64,000 nucleotides of DNA from Lineus longissimus. Taxonomy: Eukaryota; Nemertea; Pilidiophora; Heteronemertea; Lineidae. Below the pieces are notes generated by a model, which saw only the letters and a list, made by a program, of their open reading frames with translations, searched no databases and was not told where the DNA came from. Positions 41,395-60,800 of the stretch are shown one piece after another (position 1 is the first letter of the stretch; the number at the start of each line of letters is the position of its first letter). The stretch is from the NCBI RefSeq assembly GCF_910592395.1, contig NC_088324.1, positions 11,930,953 to 11,994,952 of the forward strand, in the 5' to 3' direction. A program made the translations under genes and the position numbers.

Positions 41395-43101
41395 TTATGA
41401 AAACACGCCACGGTTCATGATAGCACTTTTTCTCACCGGCATCGCCCCTGGATAAATACCCTCATGTTTCCGTTCATGTTTATTCAAATTTCCTGCCGTA
41501 GTAAAGGTTGTACCACAATACTGACAATTGAATGCTTTCTCCCCTGAATGGGTAATCCCATGTTTAGAAAGGTCATTTTTCCGCCTGAAAGCTTTATTGC
41601 AAACTTCACACTTAAAAGGTTTAATCCCCGAGTGAATCTGTTCGTGTTCTTTCAAAACGTTCGGAAGGTAGAAGGATTTTTCACAGAACTGACACTGAAA
41701 AGGTCTCTCCCCACTATGGCTCAACTCATGCAGTTTCAAATTCCGTTTTTCGACAAAAGTTTTATCACACTGGTCACATTTGAATGGCCTCATACCAGAG
41801 TGGGAACGTTCATGTGCATCGAGACCGTGTTTCGTGGTAAATGAGCTCTCACATAAGGTACACGGAAAAGGTTTCTGATCCAAGTGGACTAATTCATGTT
41901 GTACTTGTAAATGTTTCTGGGTGAAGCCTTTATTACAATGTTTGCATTTATAAGGTCTTTCTCCTGTGTGGATGTATTCATGTATCCGAACCTTACTCCG
42001 CTCACTGAAGGCATCACCGCAGTATTGACAAGTATATGGTTTAATACCGGTGTGCATATTCCTTTCGTGTGATGTCCGTGAACTCGTCTGATTAAATGTC
42101 TTGTTACAAAAGGAACACTCAAATGGTCTTTCACCAGTGTGAATACGTTCATGTTGCCGAAGCCCTGCTTGATTGCTAAACAACTTACTACAATATTGAC
42201 ACGGAAATGGCTTTGTACCCGGATGGGTACGCAAGTGCTGCTGCATTTCATTCAAACTCGAAAACTCGAGTTGACAGATTCCACAGTTGAATGACTTTTC
42301 ACCAGTCTGAATATAACTGTCTTTGGTTTGATAATTAGCACCCGATACAAGATTGTAACAACCTTTATCAAATGATATCTCATCTGATTCATGTTTAGAC
42401 TTGTGCTTTTTCAAGTCACCAGGCCATTTATAAGTCTTATTTCTACATTTGAATGTTTTTTCACCTGTATGAATTCTTTCATGTGATTTCTGTTGGACTG
42501 AAGTCGCAAATGATTTCTCACAATGTACACAAGCAAATTTATTTTCGTTGACTGCAGCTGTGTGGATTAATTCATGCGTTGTACAGTCGCTTCTACGCCA
42601 AAATGTTTTATCACAATCGGGATGAGAACATTTGAATGGTTGTTCACGTGTATGAACAAGCCGTTGCCTTTTTAGTTCAGAATTAGTCGCAAATGCTTTT
42701 TCACAACGAAAGTACTGAAATGATTTTTCCTGTGAATGAGTCAACTCATGTTGCTGACAATCCCTCTTGTCAAAGAAACCCTTCTGACAAATTGAACACT
42801 TAAATTGTGTTTCAAGATGCGACTTTAGCTCCGTTTTTTTACAGACATTGCCATCTTCCAAGTCCTCTACTTCATCGTGATGTTCTGTAAAAGACTCCTT
42901 CTCCTCAATCACCTCCATTGTCAATGGGAGACTGTCTTCTTGGTTCTTGACCCAAGCGCTCTCCAAAGATTCCACATTTTTCTTCTCATATTGGCTCATC
43001 TGTGCCTTTTCACAGTTGCTGGCATCTGACAAGACAGAAGATGTTGCCTGGGGCTCCAGGTTTGACTTTTCCAGGGGTTCTCTTGGCTCCATCGAGTCCA
43101 T
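41395..43101 (-). CDS. C2H2 zinc-finger protein, 568 aa
   Basis: Probable nuclear DNA-binding protein. A 100-residue acidic, Ser/Glu-rich N-terminus without a recognised KRAB, SCAN, BTB or ZAD domain precedes 13 intact C2H2 fingers (about residues 100-547), many joined by TGEKP/TGERP-type linkers (HERIHTGERPFECSFC). Two fingers are broken: the second (FQYFRCEKAF) lacks its first zinc Cys and first His, and the one starting FKCRNKTYKW lacks its second Cys. A degenerate stretch follows the latter before fingers resume at FNCGICQLEF. The CDS is one exon; TTTTCTAG just upstream (43121) looks like an acceptor, so a 5' UTR intron is likely and 43101 is probably the start. It lies between two convergent conserved genes, in the orientation of whirlin. 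Orthology cannot be assigned. Confidence 0.9.
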   Translation of the reverse strand: MDSMEPREPLEKSNLEPQATSSVLSDASNCEKAQMSQYEKKNVESLESAWVKNQEDSLPLTMEVIEEKESFTEHHDEVEDLEDGNVCKKTELKSHLETQFKCSICQKGFFDKRDCQQHELTHSQEKSFQYFRCEKAFATNSELKRQRLVHTREQPFKCSHPDCDKTFWRRSDCTTHELIHTAAVNENKFACVHCEKSFATSVQQKSHERIHTGEKTFKCRNKTYKWPGDLKKHKSKHESDEISFDKGCYNLVSGANYQTKDSYIQTGEKSFNCGICQLEFSSLNEMQQHLRTHPGTKPFPCQYCSKLFSNQAGLRQHERIHTGERPFECSFCNKTFNQTSSRTSHERNMHTGIKPYTCQYCGDAFSERSKVRIHEYIHTGERPYKCKHCNKGFTQKHLQVQHELVHLDQKPFPCTLCESSFTTKHGLDAHERSHSGMRPFKCDQCDKTFVEKRNLKLHELSHSGERPFQCQFCEKSFYLPNVLKEHEQIHSGIKPFKCEVCNKAFRRKNDLSKHGITHSGEKAFNCQYCGTTFTTAGNLNKHERKHEGIYPGAMPVRKSAIMNRGVFS

Positions 43102-43120
43102 GTTGCAAGGTCCTCACTCT

Positions 43121-48182: not shown

Positions 48183-48377
48183 TTACTTGACTTTTGCTTG
48201 CCTGGAGTTGGTCTCCGCTACCAACAACTCCATGTAGTCTTTGTCCTTCTTCTTGAATGCCTTGGCGATCACCTGCGCCACCTGCTTGTGTTCTAAACCC
48301 TTCAATGATTGGCCGTCCACCTCCAGGATCACATGACCAACTTTCAAGCCACCTGACTCGTGCGCTGAACCACCAGG
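48183..48377 (-). CDS. WHRN: WHRN last coding exon: second half of PDZ3
   Basis: Acceptor CGTTTCAG, phase 0, stop TAA at 48183-48185. It encodes GGLKVGHVILEVDGQSLKGL, then IAKAFKKKDKDYMELLVAE and a basic end (SRQAKVK), matching human LKVGHVILEVNGLTLRGKEH and DYIDFLVTE. It is shared by both PDZ3 versions. Confidence 0.97.
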   Translation of the reverse strand, partial: PGGSAHESGGLKVGHVILEVDGQSLKGLEHKQVAQVIAKAFKKKDKDYMELLVAETNSRQAKVK

Positions 48378-51300
48378 CTGAAACGAAAAGGGAGAAATTG
48401 ATGAAATATGTGATGGATGTCAGGTCTATTGATAGGTGAACATCCTTAGTCGCTCAACGAGAACTACTTTCTAGTAAACTTTCCATTATTTCTAGTTCTA
48501 TTTACACCCTGAAACCCAAACTAAAAAATTAAACTTTTTACCAAGCCTTTTGGTCACTGCATAGGAAGGCATTCCTGATATTACTGATAGCACTATCAAT
48601 TACAATAACCATTACACAGCTTCCCGATACCTCAACATCAATATCATGCCTAAAATCCAAATAGTAAACCACACCAATTGCAACATTGTGCATTTGAACA
48701 CCACCTGCGCTGGCATAAGATCCTTTACCCTATCCTCTAACTGGAGCAAAAGCATTTCATGAAGAGCAGACAGAGTTCGTGTTTATTTTGAAAGGAGCAA
48801 AGGAGGATACAAGCCTACGAGCAGAGGGGAAGCTGCACTCTACAGATACTCTGTGAAGTCAGAAATGTACATGTACCACTTTTGTGTGTTTTTGTCCAGT
48901 GCACACTACAAGAAATAGATGAAAAAACCAGGCTCTAGTGACAAATCCAGATCAGTGCTTCCAGAAACTTCACATCAATGCACTCGGTATACTTGCCAAT
49001 CAAAGTATTTAAAGCTGTATGACCAAAACAGAAAAGGTTCATTTTATGCTTTTACCAAATGATGAGGAAAATGCATAAGACCTGAATACCCCATGCAGGA
49101 ATACAGTAGCAACGTTGGACATTTTAAAAACTTAAGTTCCTATCAAAACCAACACCACACCCTTCCACTGGATGAAAAACTTGAGATATATCCCATAATC
49201 CTTGCACAGCTATAAGATTGTATCAAAACCAAAGCACTACATGTACTATTTTTTACCATCCCATGATGTTCTGAAAGGCTACTCTACGTCAAGCAACAAA
49301 GCAGATTTCTCCATGCCAAAAGCTCAAACTAAAATGCCCGTCCTATTAACATGTCATCAGGAATGACTACCTTAACGTCAATGACTTTCGGCAGGGGTTC
49401 CACAGTCCCCGCCCCACCAACTATTCCTATACCGATCTTAGGCCGCAACTTGAGAATGCGAATTTTCTGTTCAAATATTGAATAAAGTAAAGCAAATCAG
49501 GATTTCTAAACACACACAGTTTTACAAAAACAAAAGTCTCCCTGAAAAAAGCTATATATTTCAAATGTTATAGGACTCCGGACCAAGTTGTGCTCTCACT
49601 TTAACTGTATGGCCACCAAATAACCATCTTAGATTTCACCTTACTTTTATACTTTATCAGATTTGCGCCAGTCTGTATGTTCCCAATCAGCTTATGTCTG
49701 ACAGCTGTTAGCAAATCATCCCTTACAAAATCAATGAAACCCATCATTTTCAACAATTGTTTGGTGCCCAAACAAAACTTAGGTCTCAGCTACGCACCTG
49801 TATATTGATGATCCTTGGTAAAGGTTGCCGTGTATTTGCACCCCCCTCAATAGCCACTCCCAGGGTTGGCTGCGTTTTGTAGACCGTGACATTCTCTGGG
49901 TTGATCACCTCATCACGTCCTCGTGCCATCTGTGGAGAGAAACCGAACATGAGCAAGGGAAGGATAAGCTAGTTATGATTGCACAATCAGATGCAGGAGA
50001 GAGTCTAGTTGTACATTCAAGGTGACAAAAGTCAAAACACTGCCCAACACAGCTGGTCATTGACATTAGTAATTTAGTAAAACTTCAGCTCAAAAATCAT
50101 AAAGCAACACTGTACGATACATAAAAATGATGTTTTAAGCTCCATCTATCTAAAATAGATATAAATGTTAGTGATATTAGTCAAAACGCACACTAGTGTG
50201 AACTACAAGCTGAAATATTAAAAGCAAAAGTACGGGTAAAACTGTGCATTAATTGGTTAATTTGGTGAAAAGTCATGCACAAAACACATTGGTTCATCAC
50301 ATTTGGAATACAGATTATAGGCTACAGACATAGCAGACTCACAGAATTCATTCCAGATTGCAAAGGTAAGGTGTGTTTCACTGACACTCGGAACGAAAGC
50401 TTAATCAATCTGATGAACCAGGGTGCAAGGGTTAATGAAAATAATAATTGTTAAAATTGTGCATCACATCTACAACAGAAAGTAAACTGAAAACCTACAT
50501 CCGCCTCAGGCTCAGGTTTAGGAGCCTGTTCCCGTGGCTCCACCACGGGCACAACGGGGGCTGGAGGCAGCACTGGTTCTGGTGGGGGAGGAGGAGGGAA
50601 GTTTGGTGGCTGTGGGGGCTCATAGTCCTCCACGGCAGCATCTAGAGCCTTCAGGAGATCATCCTCCTGGGAGTCACTCTGCAGGAGGGATAAAATGAAG
50701 GGTGAAATATAAGGTCATGTGAGGAAGTGACAAATAGAACCGAGGGGTACAGGTCGATAATGAAAATAATATGACACGTTGACCAATACATATTGTATCC
50801 TTGAAATGAATTTGTTTGGCCAAAATACTGTCTCAATGTCTTCCTTTAGCTCATACATGTAGCTAAACCATCACAGTTAGTTTCACTGACAGCAAGAACC
50901 TGGCAAGTACAATGCTTGATGCACTGAGTGCGACAATACTCTCATGAAGAAGAGAATCAGTGGCTGACGTCATTGGCGCTAACTTTGTTTGACCCAGTTC
51001 TTGCCTGGTTCTTGCTCCCAGGTCTTTACATGTACAGCACCCAACTTTACAACAAATCATGACAACATCTTTGTTTGTACTTTTCTAGATTTGATGGATG
51101 AAGCGATCGAGGATGTGGTTGTTGTTGACGTGTCATCCGGATAGTCTACGGCAGGACGAGGGATACGGAATGGTGTCACTGTCAGGCAACCATCCATGAT
51201 TCACGATAAATAATAGGTGGAGACAATGCTGTCAAACAAATAAAACAGAACACAAAATGTAATCGCAGGAATGAAAAAAAATAGGGATTATGCAATGAAA

Positions 51301-54300
51301 ATTTACATCCAATCATCTAAGCATAGGCCCTTTGAGAAAGAATGGCCTATGCAGAAGATGGAGTTGCAATGCCAGTGATGTGATCGAAATCTAGTGATGT
51401 GATCGAAACTGACCAATGTTTTAACCAGAATGCTTGCTTCCAAGTAACAGTATGTCCTAAACTCAGATTATTCTCACAACTCTCTTTGCTAAATGCTTCA
51501 CAAAAGAATAGAACCAACACTTAGAACCACCTGCAGAACATCATCCACTCAGAATATCAACATCAATCCTGACACAGAATACATCACAAACTTATATTCA
51601 TTTTTCCACATATCACTGCACAGATCAATCAACATCCACCAGGGACAGGTTATCGAGTCAAAATTCTAAATGTTACAACACAGAACCAAATTCAAGCCCT
51701 TCTTAAAATAGAGCAGAAAGACAAGATGTTTTTGAACTCACCATAGACTGAACATCAACCCGGCCACAAAATACAATCCATGGGGAAGAAATTTGATAAA
51801 ACTCTTTCTCTGAATGGTTACACAAATCAATCTCAAGTCCACCACCAACAGGTTTTATCATTGATATCAAGCCTTGATCGCTATTCTACAATAATCAAAA
51901 GCCATCGCCATGGAAACAGAAGTCATGTCTCAGATAACGCCACACCCAAAAACACTGGCATAAAACATATCAATGGGAAAAGGGATAATGGCTGGAAGTG
52001 ACATGAACCATTGTTATGACTCTTGACTGTAGATTGGATTCAGAGATTGGAGATGATTAACGTCAAAAGCTTTAGGAATTCTCACCATAATGAAACCTTG
52101 AAATGGAAATTCTGCAGAAGTCACTTCACCAGATTGGCAATCGATTCCAGAGATACTTTAACTGGATGACGAAGCTTCCAATATTCTAAACCGCAAATGT
52201 CAAGCTCCCAGACACAACCCACTCAATTCTTGCTCCTTGTCCACAACTACTACAATCAGCTTGTTATTGAATGATTGGCACAAGGTCCGACCCGAACAAT
52301 CTCCCATTACACGGTGTAATAATCGAGCAACCACTGCTTAAATATCATGAATTTTAGATGAGTTTATCAAATCAATCCATTGCCACATGCAGTTCCTTGG
52401 CAAACAATCAATCTGGATGTAGTTCAGGTGGTGATCAACACTGACCATGCCAAAAAATCAATTAAACATCATTTGAAATCGAAATTGTAAATTGTGTAGA
52501 CAATCTCTGACTATACCTAATTTAAAACTCCTACTGACATGGCTCCAATGCTAGGAAGGTAGCCATATCGCATTGGTGAAGGAACCTAGAATAGACTACA
52601 TGAACACCCAGAGGCAGTGGTTTAAGCCATGTTTAAGTCCTTGCCACTGTTGTTTATGAGCTACGAATACCACTACGTGAGGTATGTAAGATGAGATAGG
52701 AAGCACTATTAACTGGTTTCATCCTATTGGAGAGGAGGAGAAAGCTGAGCCAAAACTATAAAGCGAATATCACACACAGAAGCCTTCTTCACAATAATTT
52801 TAAAAGGGAAGGTACATATCAAAAAGAATCATACATAGCAAGTCAATACTGTAATCTGGTTGACATCCCTATAAAGTATAGTTTTTCAGTGAAACTACTT
52901 CACTGAAGTATCTGATTAAAAGTGGAATAAAATCTGAGGACTTTCTCAAAATCTATGAGAATTTCACTGGCTAGATGAGAGTGAGTTGCTGCAACAAGCA
53001 AAGTGCCTCAAAAGGCATTTACATTAGGAAAGCACACAGACATGTCTGACTATGAAGAGTCCAGGCAGCTATAAGAATAGTGCTGTTGAGATAGAACACA
53101 ATCCGAGAAAGCAATCCCACGAACTGTCTGAACATGCATAAGTGGTCATGTCCGTGAAGGGCATATCAGAGTTTATTTTCACTAACTTTTTTGTCAGAAG
53201 TGACGCACTTCTATCAAATAACCCAACATAAACTATGTGCATCTAGAGACAGTATATGTGAGAAGAAACTCTGGATAAGTTGATATCTCAACCAATCTAA
53301 AGTCCTACGGACTAGAAGAATGGACCGGGCAAACAAACGTACAGAGCTCGAGTCCTCACTGTCTTCAGAGATGAGCTCTAACTCAACGGCAATCGTCACA
53401 TTACCATACCTGAAGTCAAACACCTGAAATAATTGATTCCAGAAAGGATTAAGCATGTGTCGACCATCCATGTTGGTTCCTCATTCTTTCACAAGAGGGA
53501 CACAGTGTCAGGAATGGCCACCGTGTTGATTTTATACAGTATAGGCTATGCGCAGCGACTAACAAACCCAACACTATGAGTAAGTCCCTAAATCCTTTCT
53601 GGAATTTCAGAAACTCTACATACTGCCTAGAAGATTATGAAATAGATATGGGCTATCATCATGGCTTAAGACAAGGAAATAAACTTTTTAACCCAAACAA
53701 TTTGGAGTAATAATTAATTTAAACTCACCAAAACCAAAGTTGATTAAGCAGGAATTGGACAGCACATTCAGGATACAACACTGTGAATGAGTAAAATAAG
53801 GGCAGAACCATCTAGGGAGAGAGGTGATAATTGCAGTATCATGGACATCTCCTTGGTTACCACTCTATCATTGTTGCTAGGAAACACATTGTGGTTATGC
53901 AACAACTACCTAGGTAACACACTGTGGTTATGCAAGAACTATGAACCAAAAGAGAAGTATTGCCTATAACATCATATGACATTAGAGCCATCACCACTGT
54001 CACAGCTCAATGCCGTCTTAATGAAGCCTCGAAAAAAAGATTCTACCTCCACCTTTGACCATCACCTTTATGTCCTCAAAAGGTTGGCGAAACAAGTACA
54101 ACAGTCAAGAAAAATTAACTGCAACCTTTACCTGTGATGACCGTGAACTGTCAGGTGGTGAAGTCTCCTTCTTGTGAATTTGGACCGGGCCTAACCCGTC
54201 CATATCCCGTACCTGAACCTGCCGGCCAGGCGAACGCTCTACTTCGGGAGAACGTGGTGGAGTTGATTCTAAAGCTAGGTTGAATTTTTGTTGCATGATT

Positions 54301-57300
54301 GGTGACTCGTTTGCGGTGTATTGAGGAGGTTCTTCTTCTCTCCGTGGGGAGTTCTGTGGCGTCCGGTGTGGTGAGGGGACGGGAGAATGCCGCAGAGACT
54401 CTGGCTTCTTCTGATGTACACTGAAAGGAAGACAAATCAGTGATATACACTTATTTGAATATTCCATATTCACATCAATATCCCCATGTCTTATGGGAAG
54501 CAAAGCAGAAATGGATCTATTTGGCCTAAAAAGATAACTTTGAAAATGGTCTTTGCAGGTATCACTCACCCATGATGTTGATCAGTATTATTGCTGCAAC
54601 CATTTACTTCAACTCCACTGTCCTCACTTGGACTTCTCATGTCTTCATATATCTGTCAGGATGAAGAGTAGAACAACATGTGAATAGTTCTTCAAAAGTA
54701 AGAGAGGTGACTACCCCTAAAACTATGGGAGACACAATCCTTAATTGTCGAGGCATTTCTTCAGAGAGAAAGCCCCTGAGCTAGTACTGATATTGCACTG
54801 ATATTTTATATACCTTTGCGTTCCTTCTTCTCTTTCCTGGATTCTCGCCACAACACAGTCCCAATATCACCATCATTTTGAGACGTTATAACCAGAATAA
54901 TTTGCAATACAGAAATACTATCCAAAGTCACAGAATACTATGATGGCCTCTGCACACTTCAGCTAATGTTATCCTCTACTGAAGTATTGACTGCCACAGG
55001 ACTTCAACTCAAAATCTACCACTGACTTTCATATGTGATAAACAAGCTGAATTCAAATCGTTATCATATGCACTGAACCTAATCACCATGATACTTCAAA
55101 CTCTTTGGCTGTCTTTCTAACAAGCTAATGTAGAAGAGAGATAGGGCGTTCTAATAAGCCACTTTACCTATTCCACACCTGGGGTTCATCTGAAGGAGAC
55201 AATTTTCTATTCAATTTGATTGATTTAAATAAATTTTTTTAAAGGCCTAGGAAGCAACATAGAATATATTTTCTTCCTAGAAATCATCGATGCCCAGGTG
55301 GCAGACTTTTTGTTCCTGCTATCAACCTGTCTCAGATAAACTATAACCTATGACCTCTAAAACCTTATGCTATGCATATTTTCTATCCTACAGTATTCAA
55401 ACAGGAATTGATGTGAAAGATCCCAACACCGTGTTGTGAAAAAAGGCCTTACCAATGGAGGTGGAGCCTTTGCCTCTTGATGTACCTCAGCCACAATGAC
55501 GTTCTCCTTTGGGCTGGATTGAACTGGAACCGCATGAGTTGCTTGGATCTCATTGATGTTGTTCTGGAAAGGAAACAAAATAAAAACATACACTTGAAAG
55601 CATAAAGTCTCTTTTGCATTTGACGGGGTCACTTTGATTGAAAACCCTTCTCATCCAGTGACAAAGCACAACAGAGTCAAGCTATCAGCTACCAAACTGA
55701 CTACCAAAGAAGATATGAGTTTTTGAATACACCTCGACCAGCTCTAGTCATGATGGTCAACAGATCAGCTGAAATTCTGAGATCCAGAAAAACTCAGAGA
55801 CTTACATCTCCTCTAAAGAAGTCAGGTAATCCATCTGTATCATCATTAATCTGCTCAATGGCGGCTGTGAGGGGATCGTTGTTATTCTCATGGCTTACCT
55901 GAAATGGAAATATACTTCCTATAAACACCCATTTCGAAGATGATTTTCGAGATAATGTCATTACGTCAAGACCAAGACTGTCTGTCTATCTGACCTCAGC
56001 TGGAGATAGAAGCTGACAATTAGGGTCGAATGCTGAGGAGAAGACCGACACAACAGAGAGTGCTGATTGCTGAGAAAGGGCCCTACCTTGACATGAGGGG
56101 GTAGCTTTGCTGGAACCACAGGTGGCGTTATGGATTTGCCATCCCCAGAAACCTACAGAACAGAACAGAAGGTCATGGACAAACAGTTTCAAATTTAGCA
56201 GAAACCTCAGAGCCGTCAAAGTATGCTATCCTAATACTAACTAAATTATATTCAACGATTTAAGTTGTGGAGACATAATCTTCTAAATGTTTCACTACTG
56301 CCAACTCTACAGAGCATGTACTGTTGGCAAAGTACATTCTAAAACCCAAATATATCCTGAACATATGCCACTTCCTCGTAGTGCTTGGAAACTTTCCAGC
56401 CCCCTTTAACTCTTTCAGTGCCAAGGACGTACATGTACGTCCTCAATATTAAGGTATTTTAGTTCCTCCAGACGACACCAGATGTCCCCAGCTACTCAAA
56501 TGTGGTTCATATGGTTTCTCTGGCCTGGGGCGTCCAAATTGAATAATTTTTTCGACTGAGAGGGTGGGTGGGGTTTGCCACCCCTCATTTTAGGTGAAAA
56601 ATGGTGAAAATCGGCCAAAAATACCACTCCCTCAAAAAAATTTAGAACATAATCCTAGTATGCCCCTACTTATTACTGCTGTTTTATTGAAACAGGAGGT
56701 AAAGACAAAGGTTTTGAAGAATTTTGATGAGTGTATCTCAATTATTTTTGTGAGATTTTGGGTAGTGACAATGCCCAAAAATGCCCAAATCCTGGGCACT
56801 GAAAGAGTTAATTGACACTAGATCACTTTGTTTAGTACTAAAACACTTTTCAGAACATGTCTTTTTCCATTTTTTTTAGATGAAAGGTTGGCTTCTATGA
56901 TTATTGATTTTTTGTTGGTATGCTAAATCTGGAGTGAGATTGTCAAAGCGAGATTCAATTATGTTACAGAAATATCATGAATGAAGGCAAATGATAGGTC
57001 CCAATTAGTGGTTTTACACATTTTTTTTTACAGCTTTCTTTATTTACTGCATATTTGTGTGACTGGGTTTTTTTTCCAAATCAAATGTTCAATACAAATG
57101 TAAATGTAAAAGTAGGCTAATAAGAAAATCTGGCTAAAGGTCTCCTTGCTTTGAACGACAACTGAATCACAGCTAAGCAGAAAAGTTCAGTTCAAGCAAT
57201 GTGTGTGAGTAGCTGAGTAGAGAAAATGTGGAGAACTTTTAAATAAATCAAGCTTAGAAATTGATCATTATGGCACATGCTACCAACCTGGTTCTCCTCT

Positions 57301-60300
57301 TGCTTGGCACTCTCGGCCAGCTAGTAAAATAGACAAATATTTGTTCACATTTTTTGTTTACACAGCTAATTTTTTTTCACTATTGTTGATGGAAAATGAT
57401 AAATTTGTTTCAGATGAAGAAACACAGGTGGCCAGCCATTATTACTGTACAAAAGAATATTCATCTGTTCCCCATCACAGAGGGCAGATGGTTTTGACAA
57501 ACTTTTTACGAATGCATGTGCATGCAGGTGTCATGATGTATGTACATGTATGTGTGACTTAAATGTATCTCCCTAACACTGCCAAATACTACTTGGTATT
57601 CACCTACAGAAGTCAAGTAAGGTGGTACAAATATATCCTCTGTGTGCATTAATGAGGACTGCCAGCTGGGAGCTATTGTACCAAGGCTGTCATTCTACCA
57701 CTCCACCTTACAACTTTGGGCAATCTTCAATGCCTACCCACCTTCATCGATTCAACCTCCTTCTTGAGTACAAGCGTGTCAAACCGATCAATATCCTTAG
57801 GAGAGATGATCGTACGAATCTCCGATAACAATGAAAACTGAAACAGAAATCACAAATATGAGAGGAAACGGGTTGGGTTCTGAAAATATGAGTAGTACAA
57901 ATCGGGCTTGACAGTGTTTCTCACTTGAATAATGACTAAGTACTGATCCAGCAGTACTTACTTTAGCATGCGTATTGAGCAACTCGAACAGCGCCAGGAC
58001 CAACGCGTCAACCGTCACATGATCCTTCTGGTACTCATTTAAGTAGTAGTTTAACGTCCCCCGCTCTGTTTCATTGAGGAGTTGTCGGGACTGCTCCTCG
58101 ATCATGCCCCATTGCTGGCTGGCCGTGGGGTTGTACATCAGCTGGGAGCCGGCCCCGCGTGAGAATACTGACTGTAAAGGAGGAAGGTCTGGCTGCTGAA
58201 AACGAAGAAGATTAGGTGCGTCAAATAAAATGGTGCAAAGATATCACTTCATCATGTGTGCCACTCATAACTGAACATTCAGGCAAGCCTCAGAAGACAA
58301 ACTTGTCCAACCGATGACATCACACTAAATTGCACTCTGGAACTTCACAAATTGTTGCAAAATATACTTTACAATATAGCACTCCACAACAAAATGTACA
58401 GATTCAAAAATTGATTTCATTCGAAAGTTTACGACTGCAAGAGAACCTGCAGGATATCTAAAGATTACAACGTATGTTAGACTTTTCAGCATCAAGTGAG
58501 TAAGATTGAATATGGGTGGCACGACCGGTGAAACGGCAGGCATTGACAATGAGCACCGTCTGCTCCAAACCCCAATCTCATTAAATGCTTACGTCTGTTC
58601 TGACTGGCCGTCTTTCTGCTGATCCATAACCATTGGACAAAAACCTGAAAGAAATTTTTAAAAGATAATTTTTTATGCATCGCTTGCATAATTGTTGCTC
58701 ATGTCGTTGCCCGAGGGCAAACCTAGCATAAAGCAGTAGGAGGTATGATAAAAATATAACTTAAAAGACACAAGTGGCCATGATCTTTGTGTTTGTTCAA
58801 TCATAAAATGGACAAAGTTTGCCAAGTGGCAAATTGTTTGACAGTATTTCTCAACATTTCGTAGGGGCTGAACTGATCTGCTCAGTCAGACTTAACATAG
58901 TGTAGTTTCTGTGTTGTTCAGTGAAACGAATCAGTATCAGTGTTAAGTGAATTGCACCAACCATTCAAATAATGTAAAATGTTCTTGTCTTTTATCTTGA
59001 CATAGACCATTGTGGACTGCTCACAATGTAGTCTAAAATAGTTGGCGACTACCAGAACTTTAGTATCAAGTTTGAAACCAAGTATCACAGCAGAATATCA
59101 TTTATTCCAACCCATAGTCGTACAAAAGGTGTCCCAGGGTGCATTGTCCATGCATCAACGTTATTGGAAATCTTTCATCGCGCATACCATTGACTAGGTG
59201 AAGTGGGGTAACTGTTGCATATTTTCCCTTCCTAGACAAGGCACTCGGGAGTTGATTACATATGTACAACCCCTGTGAACAGCTCCAGCTCATTTCAACT
59301 GCAGAATATACATGTATATATGTACATGCAGACGACCAGACAAGAATTGGTGTGTCAAATGGAAAATGCACACAAAAATTTGAAGCTTCCTGTCGGGGTT
59401 TCTAATGAAATTGACAAGTCTCTTGATAATTTGAGCTACAGCATGCGGGTCAATACATGGTGTGGGTTCATTTCAAGTATGATGTGTCTCGATGTACCAG
59501 CTGGAACAAGTAGCAGTACTGTTGGTGGAGATCCAGTTCACCAAATGTACTCACCACATCTCAGCACATTGCAACCCCAGAGTACCTGAGTGTGGAGACC
59601 TATGAAAATTGTTGAAAATGCTTTGAGACTGACTTCGGGCAAGCATAAGATACGGCAGATGTCCTCACCATATGAAGCACCATATTTTACGCACTTATCG
59701 CAGTACAATTACTTACGGTTGTTTTGATTTCACTTGGTTTTGATTACCCATAATCCATTGCGTTTGATCGTACGTCGTCCTGGCGTACGGTAACCGCCCA
59801 ACATCTTTTATCGTCATCATCATATGCCGTGACGATTTGAGAACTTTGACGGCATCTGCATGGGAAATGTCCAGAAAACTCTGACCATTCACATCGAGGA
59901 TTTGATCACCAATCTGAAGAGGAGACAAATTACGCTTTAACTTTCCTGGAGGAGCCTAGAGCCTTGCAAAGGTGTCTTTTTTCAATAGGGACATCCCATT
60001 TTGGACCTCAATCACTCAGTCACTATCAGTACAAATTATACTTGCTTGTAACACACACAAGTCCATCAACTTTTTAACAGACGCACTTTTTAACAGACCT
60101 ACTTCTGTTTGTTGTGTGCCACTACACTTAGGTCCTAATTTGGGTTATTGGCCATGTGCTTCCTCTGGTTGCTCTAGTCTATAACAATGTCTATATTCTT
60201 TGTAAACTCACCTTTAAACCTGCATTTTCAGCCACAGAGTATGGATCAACCCCTGTAATATAAATCCCTAATCCAAACTCATTGCCCCCACGAATCATTA

Positions 60301-60800
60301 AACCCAAACTCTGGCCGTCCTCCACGACAACATTCACCTGAAGAAAGAATGAAGGAAGTATTAACAATGAAGCTGGGTTGCAGTCTCTTTACAGATCATC
60401 CAGGATGGCTGCATCCAAATTTAGGCATTATGGCCTTCAAGGTTCTGACAATATTGACAATGATCGATATTGTCACCTTTCACGAAAAATACATCGCAGG
60501 ACACATAGTTTGTGAAGAAGGACAGCTGGCTCTACTTGGAGGTTCCCGAATTGGCAAGTTGACCAATAAAATTAGCCACTGCATCCTTACCTTTCGTTCA
60601 TCACTATCTTTCAGCAGCATGAGACCACTCTTCCTCTCCCCCTTTGACTCATAACGCCCCGACCGATCGATCTCAGGCGGTGGTGACACGGGTCGACCCT
60701 GGGGGTCCACCCACGTGTACGTCTGATGGACGACATATGACCCTGGTATCCGACCGACATTTTTCACAGTTAAATCTAATTTCTTTGCTGACTTGATGAT
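48183..60800 (-). CDS. WHRN: Whirlin (PDZ scaffold), gene span, 5' exons missing
   Basis: Cytoplasmic multi-PDZ scaffold; in vertebrates it acts at stereocilia tips, the photoreceptor periciliary region and paranodes within Usher type 2 complexes. About 725 residues are visible (human is about 907). Order: end of PDZ1 with YVVHQTYTWVDPQGRPVSPP, PDZ2 (SLGLMIRGGNEFGLGIYITG, GDQILDVNGQSFLD), VGRLPYARTTYD, the HN2 domain (LLNETERGTLNYYLNEYQKD to ISPKDIDRFDTLVLKKEVES), a Ser/Pro-rich linker, a polyproline segment, and PDZ3 (TLGVAIEGGANTRQPLPRII, LKVGHVILEVDGQSL). All junctions have matching phase. HN1 and the start of PDZ1 were not found and should lie upstream, beyond about 60.8 kb. PDZ3 has two alternative 5' halves. 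Assignment is very secure. Confidence 0.96.
49371..49466 (-). CDS. WHRN: WHRN PDZ3 first half, version B (alternative exon)
   Basis: Acceptor TTTGAACAG, donor AAG|GTAGTC, 96 nt, phase 0. It encodes KIRILKLRPKIGIGIVGGAG, then TVEPLPKVIDVK. It aligns with version A over strands betaA-betaC (12 of 28 residues identical), keeping the GG and the P-L-P turn but with KIGI as binding loop. Including both versions would duplicate half a PDZ fold, so mutually exclusive use is expected. Confidence 0.88.
49798..49929 (-). CDS. WHRN: WHRN PDZ3 first half, version A (canonical)
   Basis: Acceptor CTCCACAG, donor CAG|GTGCGT, 132 nt, phase 0. It encodes MARGRDEVINPENVTVYKTQ, then PTLGVAIEGGANTRQPLPRI and INIQ. 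The TLGVAIEGGANTRQPLPRI part is nearly identical to human whirlin PDZ3, and TLGV is the carboxylate-binding loop. Confidence 0.96.
50499..50678 (-). CDS. WHRN: WHRN exon: polyproline segment
   Basis: Acceptor CTCCTGCAG, donor GAT|GTAGGT, phase 0, 60 codons. It encodes SDSQEDDLLKALDAAVEDYE, then FPPPPPPEPVLPPAPVVPVV. It corresponds to whirlin's proline-rich region before PDZ3, a likely SH3/EVH1-type ligand. Confidence 0.92.
51081..51197 (-). CDS. WHRN: Candidate alternative first coding exon of a short C-terminal whirlin isoform
   Basis: An ATG at 51197 opens a 39-codon frame (MDGCLTVTPFRIPRPAVDYP, then DDTSTTTTSSIASSIKSRK) ending at AAA|GTACAA in phase 0, as required by the next exon at 50678. 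No acceptor upstream gives the right phase, so it reads as a first exon. Vertebrate whirlin has short isoforms from internal starts carrying the proline-rich region and PDZ3, and this would be the analogue. No conservation was verified. Confidence 0.42.
53343..53423 (-). CDS. WHRN: WHRN candidate exon: acidic segment
   Basis: Acceptor ATTATTTCAG, donor TCT|GTACGT, 81 nt, phase 0. It encodes VFDFRYGNVTIAVELELISE, then DSEDSSS. Frame-neutral, so it may be alternative. Confidence 0.65.
53876..53942 (+). repeat. Tandem duplication, about 33-bp unit (WHRN intron)
   Basis: CACATTGTGGTTATGCAACA and CACACTGTGGTTATGCAAGA follow each other, each preceded by CTAGG(A/T)AA. Confidence 0.7.
54132..54420 (-). 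CDS. WHRN: WHRN exon: Ser/Pro-rich linker (largest)
   Basis: Acceptor CCTTTCAG, donor CAG|GTAAAG, 289 nt. It encodes VHQKKPESLRHSPVPSPHRT and several SP/TP motifs (STPPRSPEVERSP, KKETSPPDSSRSSQ). Likely disordered, with potential proline-directed phosphorylation sites. Confidence 0.88.
54570..54652 (-). CDS. WHRN: WHRN exon: SEDSGV segment
   Basis: Acceptor CCTGACAG, donor CATGG|GTGAGT. It encodes IYEDMRSPSEDSGVEVNGCS, then NNTDQHH. SEDSGV equals the human LSEDSGVDAG stretch. Confidence 0.87.
55453..55563 (-). CDS. WHRN: WHRN exon: linker with VIVAEVH motif
   Basis: Acceptor CTTTCCAG, donor TTG|GTAAGG, phase 0. It encodes NNINEIQATHAVPVQSSPKE, then NVIVAEVHQEAKAPPPL. VIVAEVH parallels human HFVMVEVHRPDSE. 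Confidence 0.85.
55806..55898 (-). CDS. WHRN: WHRN exon: linker
   Basis: Acceptor CATTTCAG, donor GAT|GTAAGT, phase 0. It encodes VSHENNNDPLTAAIEQINDD, then TDGLPDFFRGD. Not conserved at sequence level. Confidence 0.78.
56087..56152 (-). CDS. WHRN: WHRN exon: proline-rich linker
   Basis: Acceptor TTCTGTAG, donor AAG|GTAGGG, phase 0. It encodes VSGDGKSITPPVVPAKLPPH, then VK. Confidence 0.75.
56410..56807. mobile_element. TTAA-flanked MITE, 398 bp (WHRN intron)
   Basis: TTAA at 56406-56409 and 56808-56811 flank CTCTTTCAGTGCC and its inverted copy GGGCACTGAAAGAG. A perfect palindrome, GGACGTACATGTACGTCC, follows the left tip, in the same place as the palindrome in the 44252 element. piggyBac-type MITE. 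Confidence 0.85.
57288..57320 (-). CDS. WHRN: WHRN candidate microexon, 33 nt
   Basis: Acceptor ATTTTACTAG, donor CAG|GTTGGT, phase 0. It encodes LAESAKQEENQ. Frame-neutral, so it may be a cassette. Supported by splice sites, phase and composition only. Confidence 0.6.
57742..57837 (-). CDS. WHRN: WHRN exon: HN2 domain, end
   Basis: Acceptor CTGTTTCAG, donor AAG|GTGGGT. It encodes FSLLSEIRTIISPKDIDRFD, then TLVLKKEVESMK, matching FSLLSEVRGTISPQDLERFD. Confidence 0.97.
57962..58195 (-). CDS. WHRN: WHRN exon: HN2 domain, first part
   Basis: Acceptor GTTTTCAG, donor AAA|GTAAGT. It encodes MIEEQSRQLLNETERGTLNY, then YLNEYQKDHVTVDALVLALF and ELLNTHAK, matching human EEQARHLLNEQEHATMAYYL and LVMALFKLLNTHAK. 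This is the harmonin-N-like helical domain. Confidence 0.97.
58593..58644 (-). CDS. WHRN: WHRN exon: short linker before HN2
   Basis: Acceptor CTTTCAG, donor GAC|GTAAGC, 52 nt. In the phase set by its neighbours it encodes FLSNGYGSAERRPVRTD. The phase matches both sides; conservation is weak. Confidence 0.82.
59717..59913 (-). CDS. WHRN: WHRN exon: second half of PDZ2
   Basis: Acceptor CTCTTCAG, donor CAACC|GTAAGT. It encodes IGDQILDVNGQSFLDISHAD, then VLKSSRHMMMTIKDVGRLPY and ARTTYDQTQW, matching human KSSRHLILTVKDVGRLPHAR. Confidence 0.97.
60212..60337 (-). CDS. WHRN: WHRN exon: first half of PDZ2
   Basis: Phase 0, acceptor TTCTTCAG, donor AAAG|GTGAGT. It encodes VEDGQSLGLMIRGGNEFGLG, then IYITGVDPYSVAENAGLK. 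SLGL is the carboxylate-binding loop. Confidence 0.97.
60591..60800 (-). CDS. WHRN: WHRN exon: end of PDZ1 and PDZ1-PDZ2 linker
   Basis: Phase 0, acceptor CATCTACAG, donor AAAG|GTAAGG. It encodes IIKSAKKLDLTVKNVGRIPG, then TYTWVDPQGRPVSPPPE, matching human KGSKKLVLSVYSAGRIPGGY and YTWVDPQGRSISPP. Confidence 0.97.

Follow-up and report, generated by a model that had tools for sequence, protein, structure and literature searches.

The stretch of DNA that was analysed (64,000 nt of Lineus longissimus, hereafter the window) contains the whirlin gene of this species on its minus strand. Over the queried region the encoded protein was 100% identical to "whirlin-like isoform X3 [Lineus longissimus]" (P0001), a predicted NCBI model translated exactly by 16 genomic exons. 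The window corresponds to positions 11930953–11994952 of contig C17. Exon 1 lies above the window, and exons 2–16 of X3 span 60800–48183 (Table 1). Genome searches covered 391,118,348 bases in 30 contigs; the published assembly is given as 391 Mb and 19 chromosomes in the excerpt of its report (PMC8593623). The Pfam PDZ profile matched three stretches of P0001, indicating three PDZ domains. Both harmonin-homology regions were matched by tblastn with the human whirlin sequence as query, and the Pfam harmonin N-domain scored 20.2 bits at residues 492–544 of P0001, below its 27-bit cut-off. The Lineus gene resembles whirlin (WHRN/DFNB31; dyschronic in Drosophila) in its three PDZ domains, harmonin-homology matches and proline-rich region, with exons A and C together encoding a canonical PDZ3.

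Table 1. Exons of the Lineus whirlin gene and the intron between exons A and B (positions in the window)
Feature	Position	Strand	Size	Content
Exon 1	above the window (L004)			first harmonin-homology region and first part of PDZ1
Exons 2–12	54132..60800	-		second part of PDZ1, PDZ2, second harmonin-homology domain region, part of the proline-rich region
Exon U (exon 13)	50499..50678	-		linker exon rich in proline, 5' of PDZ3; phase 0 at its end
Exon A (exon 14 of NCBI X3)	49798..49929	-	132 nt, 44 aa	canonical whirlin PDZ3 first half, beta1–beta3, ...TLGVAIEGGANTRQPLPRIINIQ
A–B intron	49467..49797	-	331 nt	
Exon B (exon 15 of NCBI X3)	49371..49466	-	96 nt, 32 aa	tandem duplicate of A, KIRILKLRPKIGIGIVGGAGTVEPLPKVIDVK
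Exon C (exon 16)	48183..48377	-		common PDZ3 second half (alpha1 to beta6) and stop codon

Every junction among U, A, B and C has phase 0, the acceptors being AG and the donors GT, and A+C, B+C and A+B+C each give a frame open down to the same stop in C. The U–A and B–C introns measure 569 nt and 993 nt, respectively. A first-pass annotation had described two phase-0 exons, 331 bp apart, preceding the same PDZ3 second half. The coordinates, phases and splice borders all held, and the junction at 50499, where U ends, was confirmed.

Between exons 12 and 13, positions 53343–53423 (minus strand) form an open stretch in phase 0 that is bordered by AG and GT. It was first proposed as an exon of the gene and dropped since it is absent from X3; it is possibly another optional exon or a product of chance. 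Downstream of the whirlin gene, an uninterrupted frame of 572 codons (41395–43113, minus strand) encodes a C2H2 zinc-finger protein, with nine stretches matching Pfam zf-H2C2_2.

Exon B as a duplicate of exon A

Exon B is a genuine whirlin-derived tandem half-PDZ3 exon. The last 31 residues of A aligned with B without gaps and were identical at 12 of 31 positions; no other offset between -6 and +6 gave more than three identities. The BLOSUM62 sum of the alignment was 80, a value reached in none of 100,000 shuffles (maximum 40). At the nucleotide level 49 of 93 bases differ (~53% divergence), with the frame and both splice sites intact. When solved structures were searched, whirlin PDZ3 was the top match for both A+C (123 bits) and B+C (102 bits), and the top four matches of each were three chains named whirlin and KIAA1526, another name of whirlin. 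For B+C, the next-best solved structure after whirlin PDZ3 was PDZD7 (7weg, 49.7 bits); PDZD7 and harmonin are related Usher scaffolds that share domain types with whirlin. The Pfam PDZ profile scored 49.6 bits with A+C and 45.7 bits with B+C (cut-off 23.2), and neither the A half nor the B half alone matched a Pfam family at E<=1.

The origin of B was also examined. Among the fetched proteins, as listed, the best-scoring relatives of B were whirlin PDZ3 first halves. B was 55% identical to the half from Glandiceps, up to 52% to an arthropod half and 39% to Lineus A; that some distant whirlin halves are nearer to B than Lineus A is hints at an old duplication, with 31 residues being too few to date it. 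The DNA of exon B had one match in the genome at E<=0.001, which was B itself, and derivation from another gene was rejected. The protein search with B+C returned one other PDZ match (L003, contig C7, E 9.7e-4), which looked GRIP-like on inspection by eye. No duplicated second half (C') was found in the window or in L004 beyond the similarity to PDZ1 and PDZ2.

We then considered whether B is decaying. Differences between A and B numbered 15, 10 and 24 at the first, second and third codon positions (of 31 each), a pattern that by itself argues only weakly against decay. Taking into account that silent changes in A can also raise the third-position count, we simulated the amino-acid outcome instead. 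Simulations started from present-day A rather than from the ancestor, with 100,000 copies per scheme. When as many differences as observed were scattered at random over A, on positions of the same kinds, 36,650 of 100,000 copies were free of stops, and only one copy was both stop-free and at a BLOSUM score of at least 80. With 49 differences placed anywhere on A, the stop-free copies were 28,904 of 100,000, none of which reached that score. Stop-free copies with at least 12 identities were found 4,644 times per 100,000 under the observed pattern and 78 times per 100,000 with differences placed anywhere, so that counting identities discriminates less well than the BLOSUM score does. In a further run, 227 of 36,741 copies lacking stops had hydrophobic residues at all nine positions occupied by V, I, L, M or F in A; B keeps nine of nine. 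By BLOSUM score B is far too conservative for neutral decay, and it is best read as being kept by selection at the protein level. The alignment score against shuffles, together with the decay simulations, rules out a chance open frame.

The residues of B, numbered as in the A half of P0001, were compared with those of 229 proteins, insects and mammals included, which gave 169 distinct whirlin PDZ3 segments. B retains K855, I864, A868 and T870, as well as the positions already described in the first-pass annotation as shared, namely G (G861), GG (G866, G867) and PLP (P873, L874, P875). On the other hand, B carries L860I, A863G and E865V at invariant positions, the replacing residues occurring in 0 of the 169 distinct segments, and it also differs at the strongly conserved positions T859K, N869G, R871V, Q872E and R876K. 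By alignment with PSD-95 PDZ3, K855 would be the basic residue before the carboxylate loop, 859–862 the x-Phi-G-Phi loop, and 863 and 865 residues of beta2 beside the ligand; the class-defining histidine of alpha2 would lie in C and hence be shared. The two exons had been proposed to carry different binding loops. The loops do differ, but x-Phi-G-Phi is the carboxylate loop motif, and K-I-G-I of B matches it, so that B has a second version of a normal loop rather than a loss of it. Because the changes fall at 863 and 865 while the loop motif and the alpha2 histidine of C are kept, B should be competent for binding, with an altered beta2 face.

Splicing and occurrence of exon B

Isoform evidence comes from one NCBI model, X3, itself a prediction and not a read. 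In X3, A is followed by B and B by C within a single protein (...RIINIQ-KIRILK...VIDVK-PGGSAHES...). This model stands for a cluster of seven member sequences on one contig, the six others of which may be A-C, U-B-C, other A-B-C forms or duplicate records. We found neither a frame shift nor a very short intron that would bar A from being joined to B, as U, A, B and C are in phase 0, and an A–B intron of 331 nt is presumably long enough for A to be spliced to B without steric hindrance. The donor of B (AAG|gtagtc) was the weakest of the 15 in the gene, at 0.6 bits against 1.5–8.3 for the other 14 by a donor matrix, and the pyrimidine fraction of its acceptor, 0.62, was the second-lowest of 15 (lowest, 0.56). 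A weak donor and a poor pyrimidine tract suit an optional exon. TGCATG, the RBFOX-type hexamer, is present near B (49097–49092). The whole window contains 84 such sites, some of them overlapping palindromic ones, against 53.7 ± 8.1 expected, and 0 of 100 shuffles had as many; the site near B was given no weight as a splicing signal in view of this window-wide over-representation.

These results bear on the proposal that A and B form an exon switch. B is a real half-PDZ3 exon that is included in the X3 model, keeps the fold positions and changes invariant ones. An exclusive switch cannot yet be claimed, since predicted X3, the one isoform examined, has both exons. The first-pass annotation had itself anticipated that joining both would insert a second half-domain, and A-B-C is exactly what predicted X3 contains.

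We next examined the junction between A and C in 233 whirlin-type proteins, including the best 120 of 1,583 from one search, among which are all five proteins of another. Two of the searches used words from regions including B (proteins of ~490–1555 and 230–720 residues) and would miss a strongly diverged or unannotated B. In 229 of the 233, an A-type half ran gap-free into the C half, and the Lineus protein was the only one with 32 extra residues there. Version B had been expected to be sought in other invertebrate whirlin loci; at the level of proteins, no B insert was present in the other 232 inspected, which include another nemertean, Tubulanus polymorphus (P0002), whose protein joins A to C. 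Judging from these relatives, a form free of B would also be made in Lineus. P0081 (Arapaima gigas) has one extra residue at the A/C junction and P0230 (Batillaria attramentaria) lacks the A half up to this junction; both would fit an intron shared in position by a fish and a mollusc. The match to P0099 (Lingula anatina) lay solely in a different PDZ domain, and this protein stops short of a PDZ3. It may be an incomplete model or a short form, as with the short form of dysc, which is said to end without PDZ3 in the excerpt of PMC3330124.

Possible roles of exon B in PDZ3

Structure prediction was carried out on X3. With an alignment of 32 rows, AlphaFold2 modelled the A half and the C half confidently, and B came out disordered (pLDDT under 50 at 884–899 and 901–912). 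The model superimposed on the crystal structure of whirlin PDZ3 (6y38) over 92 residues at 0.7 A, covering 846–969 of the model with 32 residues unmatched, in an alignment from which the program omitted long stretches under pLDDT 60. The 32-row alignment has no other row bearing B and leans towards A, and therefore the model cannot decide between A-C and B-C packing. A run free of alignment gave a mean pLDDT of 36.6 and was uninformative.

The explanation that we favour, with roughly even confidence, is that the exon coding for the beta1–beta3 half of whirlin PDZ3 was duplicated in tandem, that copy B has been kept by selection on the protein, and that it is spliced as an in-frame, cassette-like alternative exon, at least sometimes joined to A as in predicted X3. 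Contiguous with C, B would most likely supply beta1–beta3 and thereby replace the usual ligand-facing residues of beta2. Its half could take the place of that of A either when A is skipped or by displacing A within the A-B-C form. That B has kept the PDZ core pattern presumably argues for its folding as beta1–beta3 in some isoform, as there would be little reason to keep it unless B had a second half to fold on. Against the favoured explanation, B was not found as the sole first half in an isoform, X3 as the one model examined having both halves, and the AlphaFold2 model, built from an alignment free of B, packs A with C and leaves B disordered. The presence of B in no other protein of those inspected also counts against it. 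Within A-B-C, the first halves might even be rivals for the one second half in an intramolecular half-domain swap, which we consider quite unlikely. If this were true, inclusion of B would make PDZ3 a switch between two states, with two surfaces for peptide binding and no need for mutual exclusivity.

Other explanations were weighed against the same data. A and B may be truly mutually exclusive, with X3 a rare form or an over-joined gene model. Tandem homologous exons of equal phase before a common downstream half are the classic layout of such exons, the sequence of B+C by itself makes up a complete PDZ, and X3 is a prediction; nevertheless, this model does join A, B and C, the frame survives double inclusion, and the 331-nt intron presumably imposes no steric bar. 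We consider strict exclusivity rather unlikely. B could instead disable or regulate PDZ3 as a cassette insert, either as a disordered 32-residue beta3–alpha1 loop on an A+C fold or through halves that spoil each other. The joining of A, B and C in X3, the weak donor of B and the disorder of B beside confident A and C halves would agree with this. However, the supporting model is biased by its alignment, and a mere loop need not retain nine of nine hydrophobic residues and the GG..PLP positions; we regard a disabling or regulatory insert as unlikely. Finally, the weak donor, the poor pyrimidine tract and the occurrence of B in only 1 of 233 proteins would be compatible with a non-functional duplicate swept into the gene prediction, or with low-level splicing noise. 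Taking into account that the divergence of B is far too conservative at the protein level for neutral decay by BLOSUM score, and that frame and splice sites survive a nucleotide divergence of 49/93, we find a non-functional B highly improbable.

Comparison with known splicing systems

Mutually exclusive exons that arose by tandem duplication are found, for example, in Dscam. Lineus A and B resemble these exons in their adjacency, homology, same phase and one shared continuation, and differ from them in that double inclusion is in frame and is present in predicted X3. Alternative splicing inside a PDZ domain also occurs, as with the five-residue insert in PDZ2 of PTP-BL. There the domain is likewise altered internally near the beta2–beta3 region, but by a few extra residues, whereas in Lineus a whole diverged copy of beta1–beta3 is involved.

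PDZ specificity is usually altered by duplication of genes or whole domains. With a duplicated half-domain exon, a single gene could vary only the carboxylate loop and the beta2 side of the groove while the alpha2 side stays fixed. Whirlin is a scaffold linked to deafness and blindness, and Lineus provides alternatives at three PDZ3 positions invariant in the 169 segments inspected. Splicing can probably alter what the Lineus scaffold binds, and B may re-tune ligand choice, making the A/B pair a natural experiment on PDZ specificity and half-domain complementation.

No description of a duplicated whirlin PDZ3 exon was found in the listed titles and beginnings of abstracts, a weak test of its absence in print. 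In the excerpts of PMC3330124 and PMC7532178, splicing of whirlin and dysc gives long, short, PDZ3-lacking or PDZ3-only forms, in contrast to the half-domain exchange proposed here for Lineus, which, as far as these excerpts show, would add a new kind of variant to the alternative splicing of this gene. Mammalian whirlin PDZ3 binds, for instance, the tail of CDH23 with a Kd of about 4 uM, according to the excerpt of PMC7532178.
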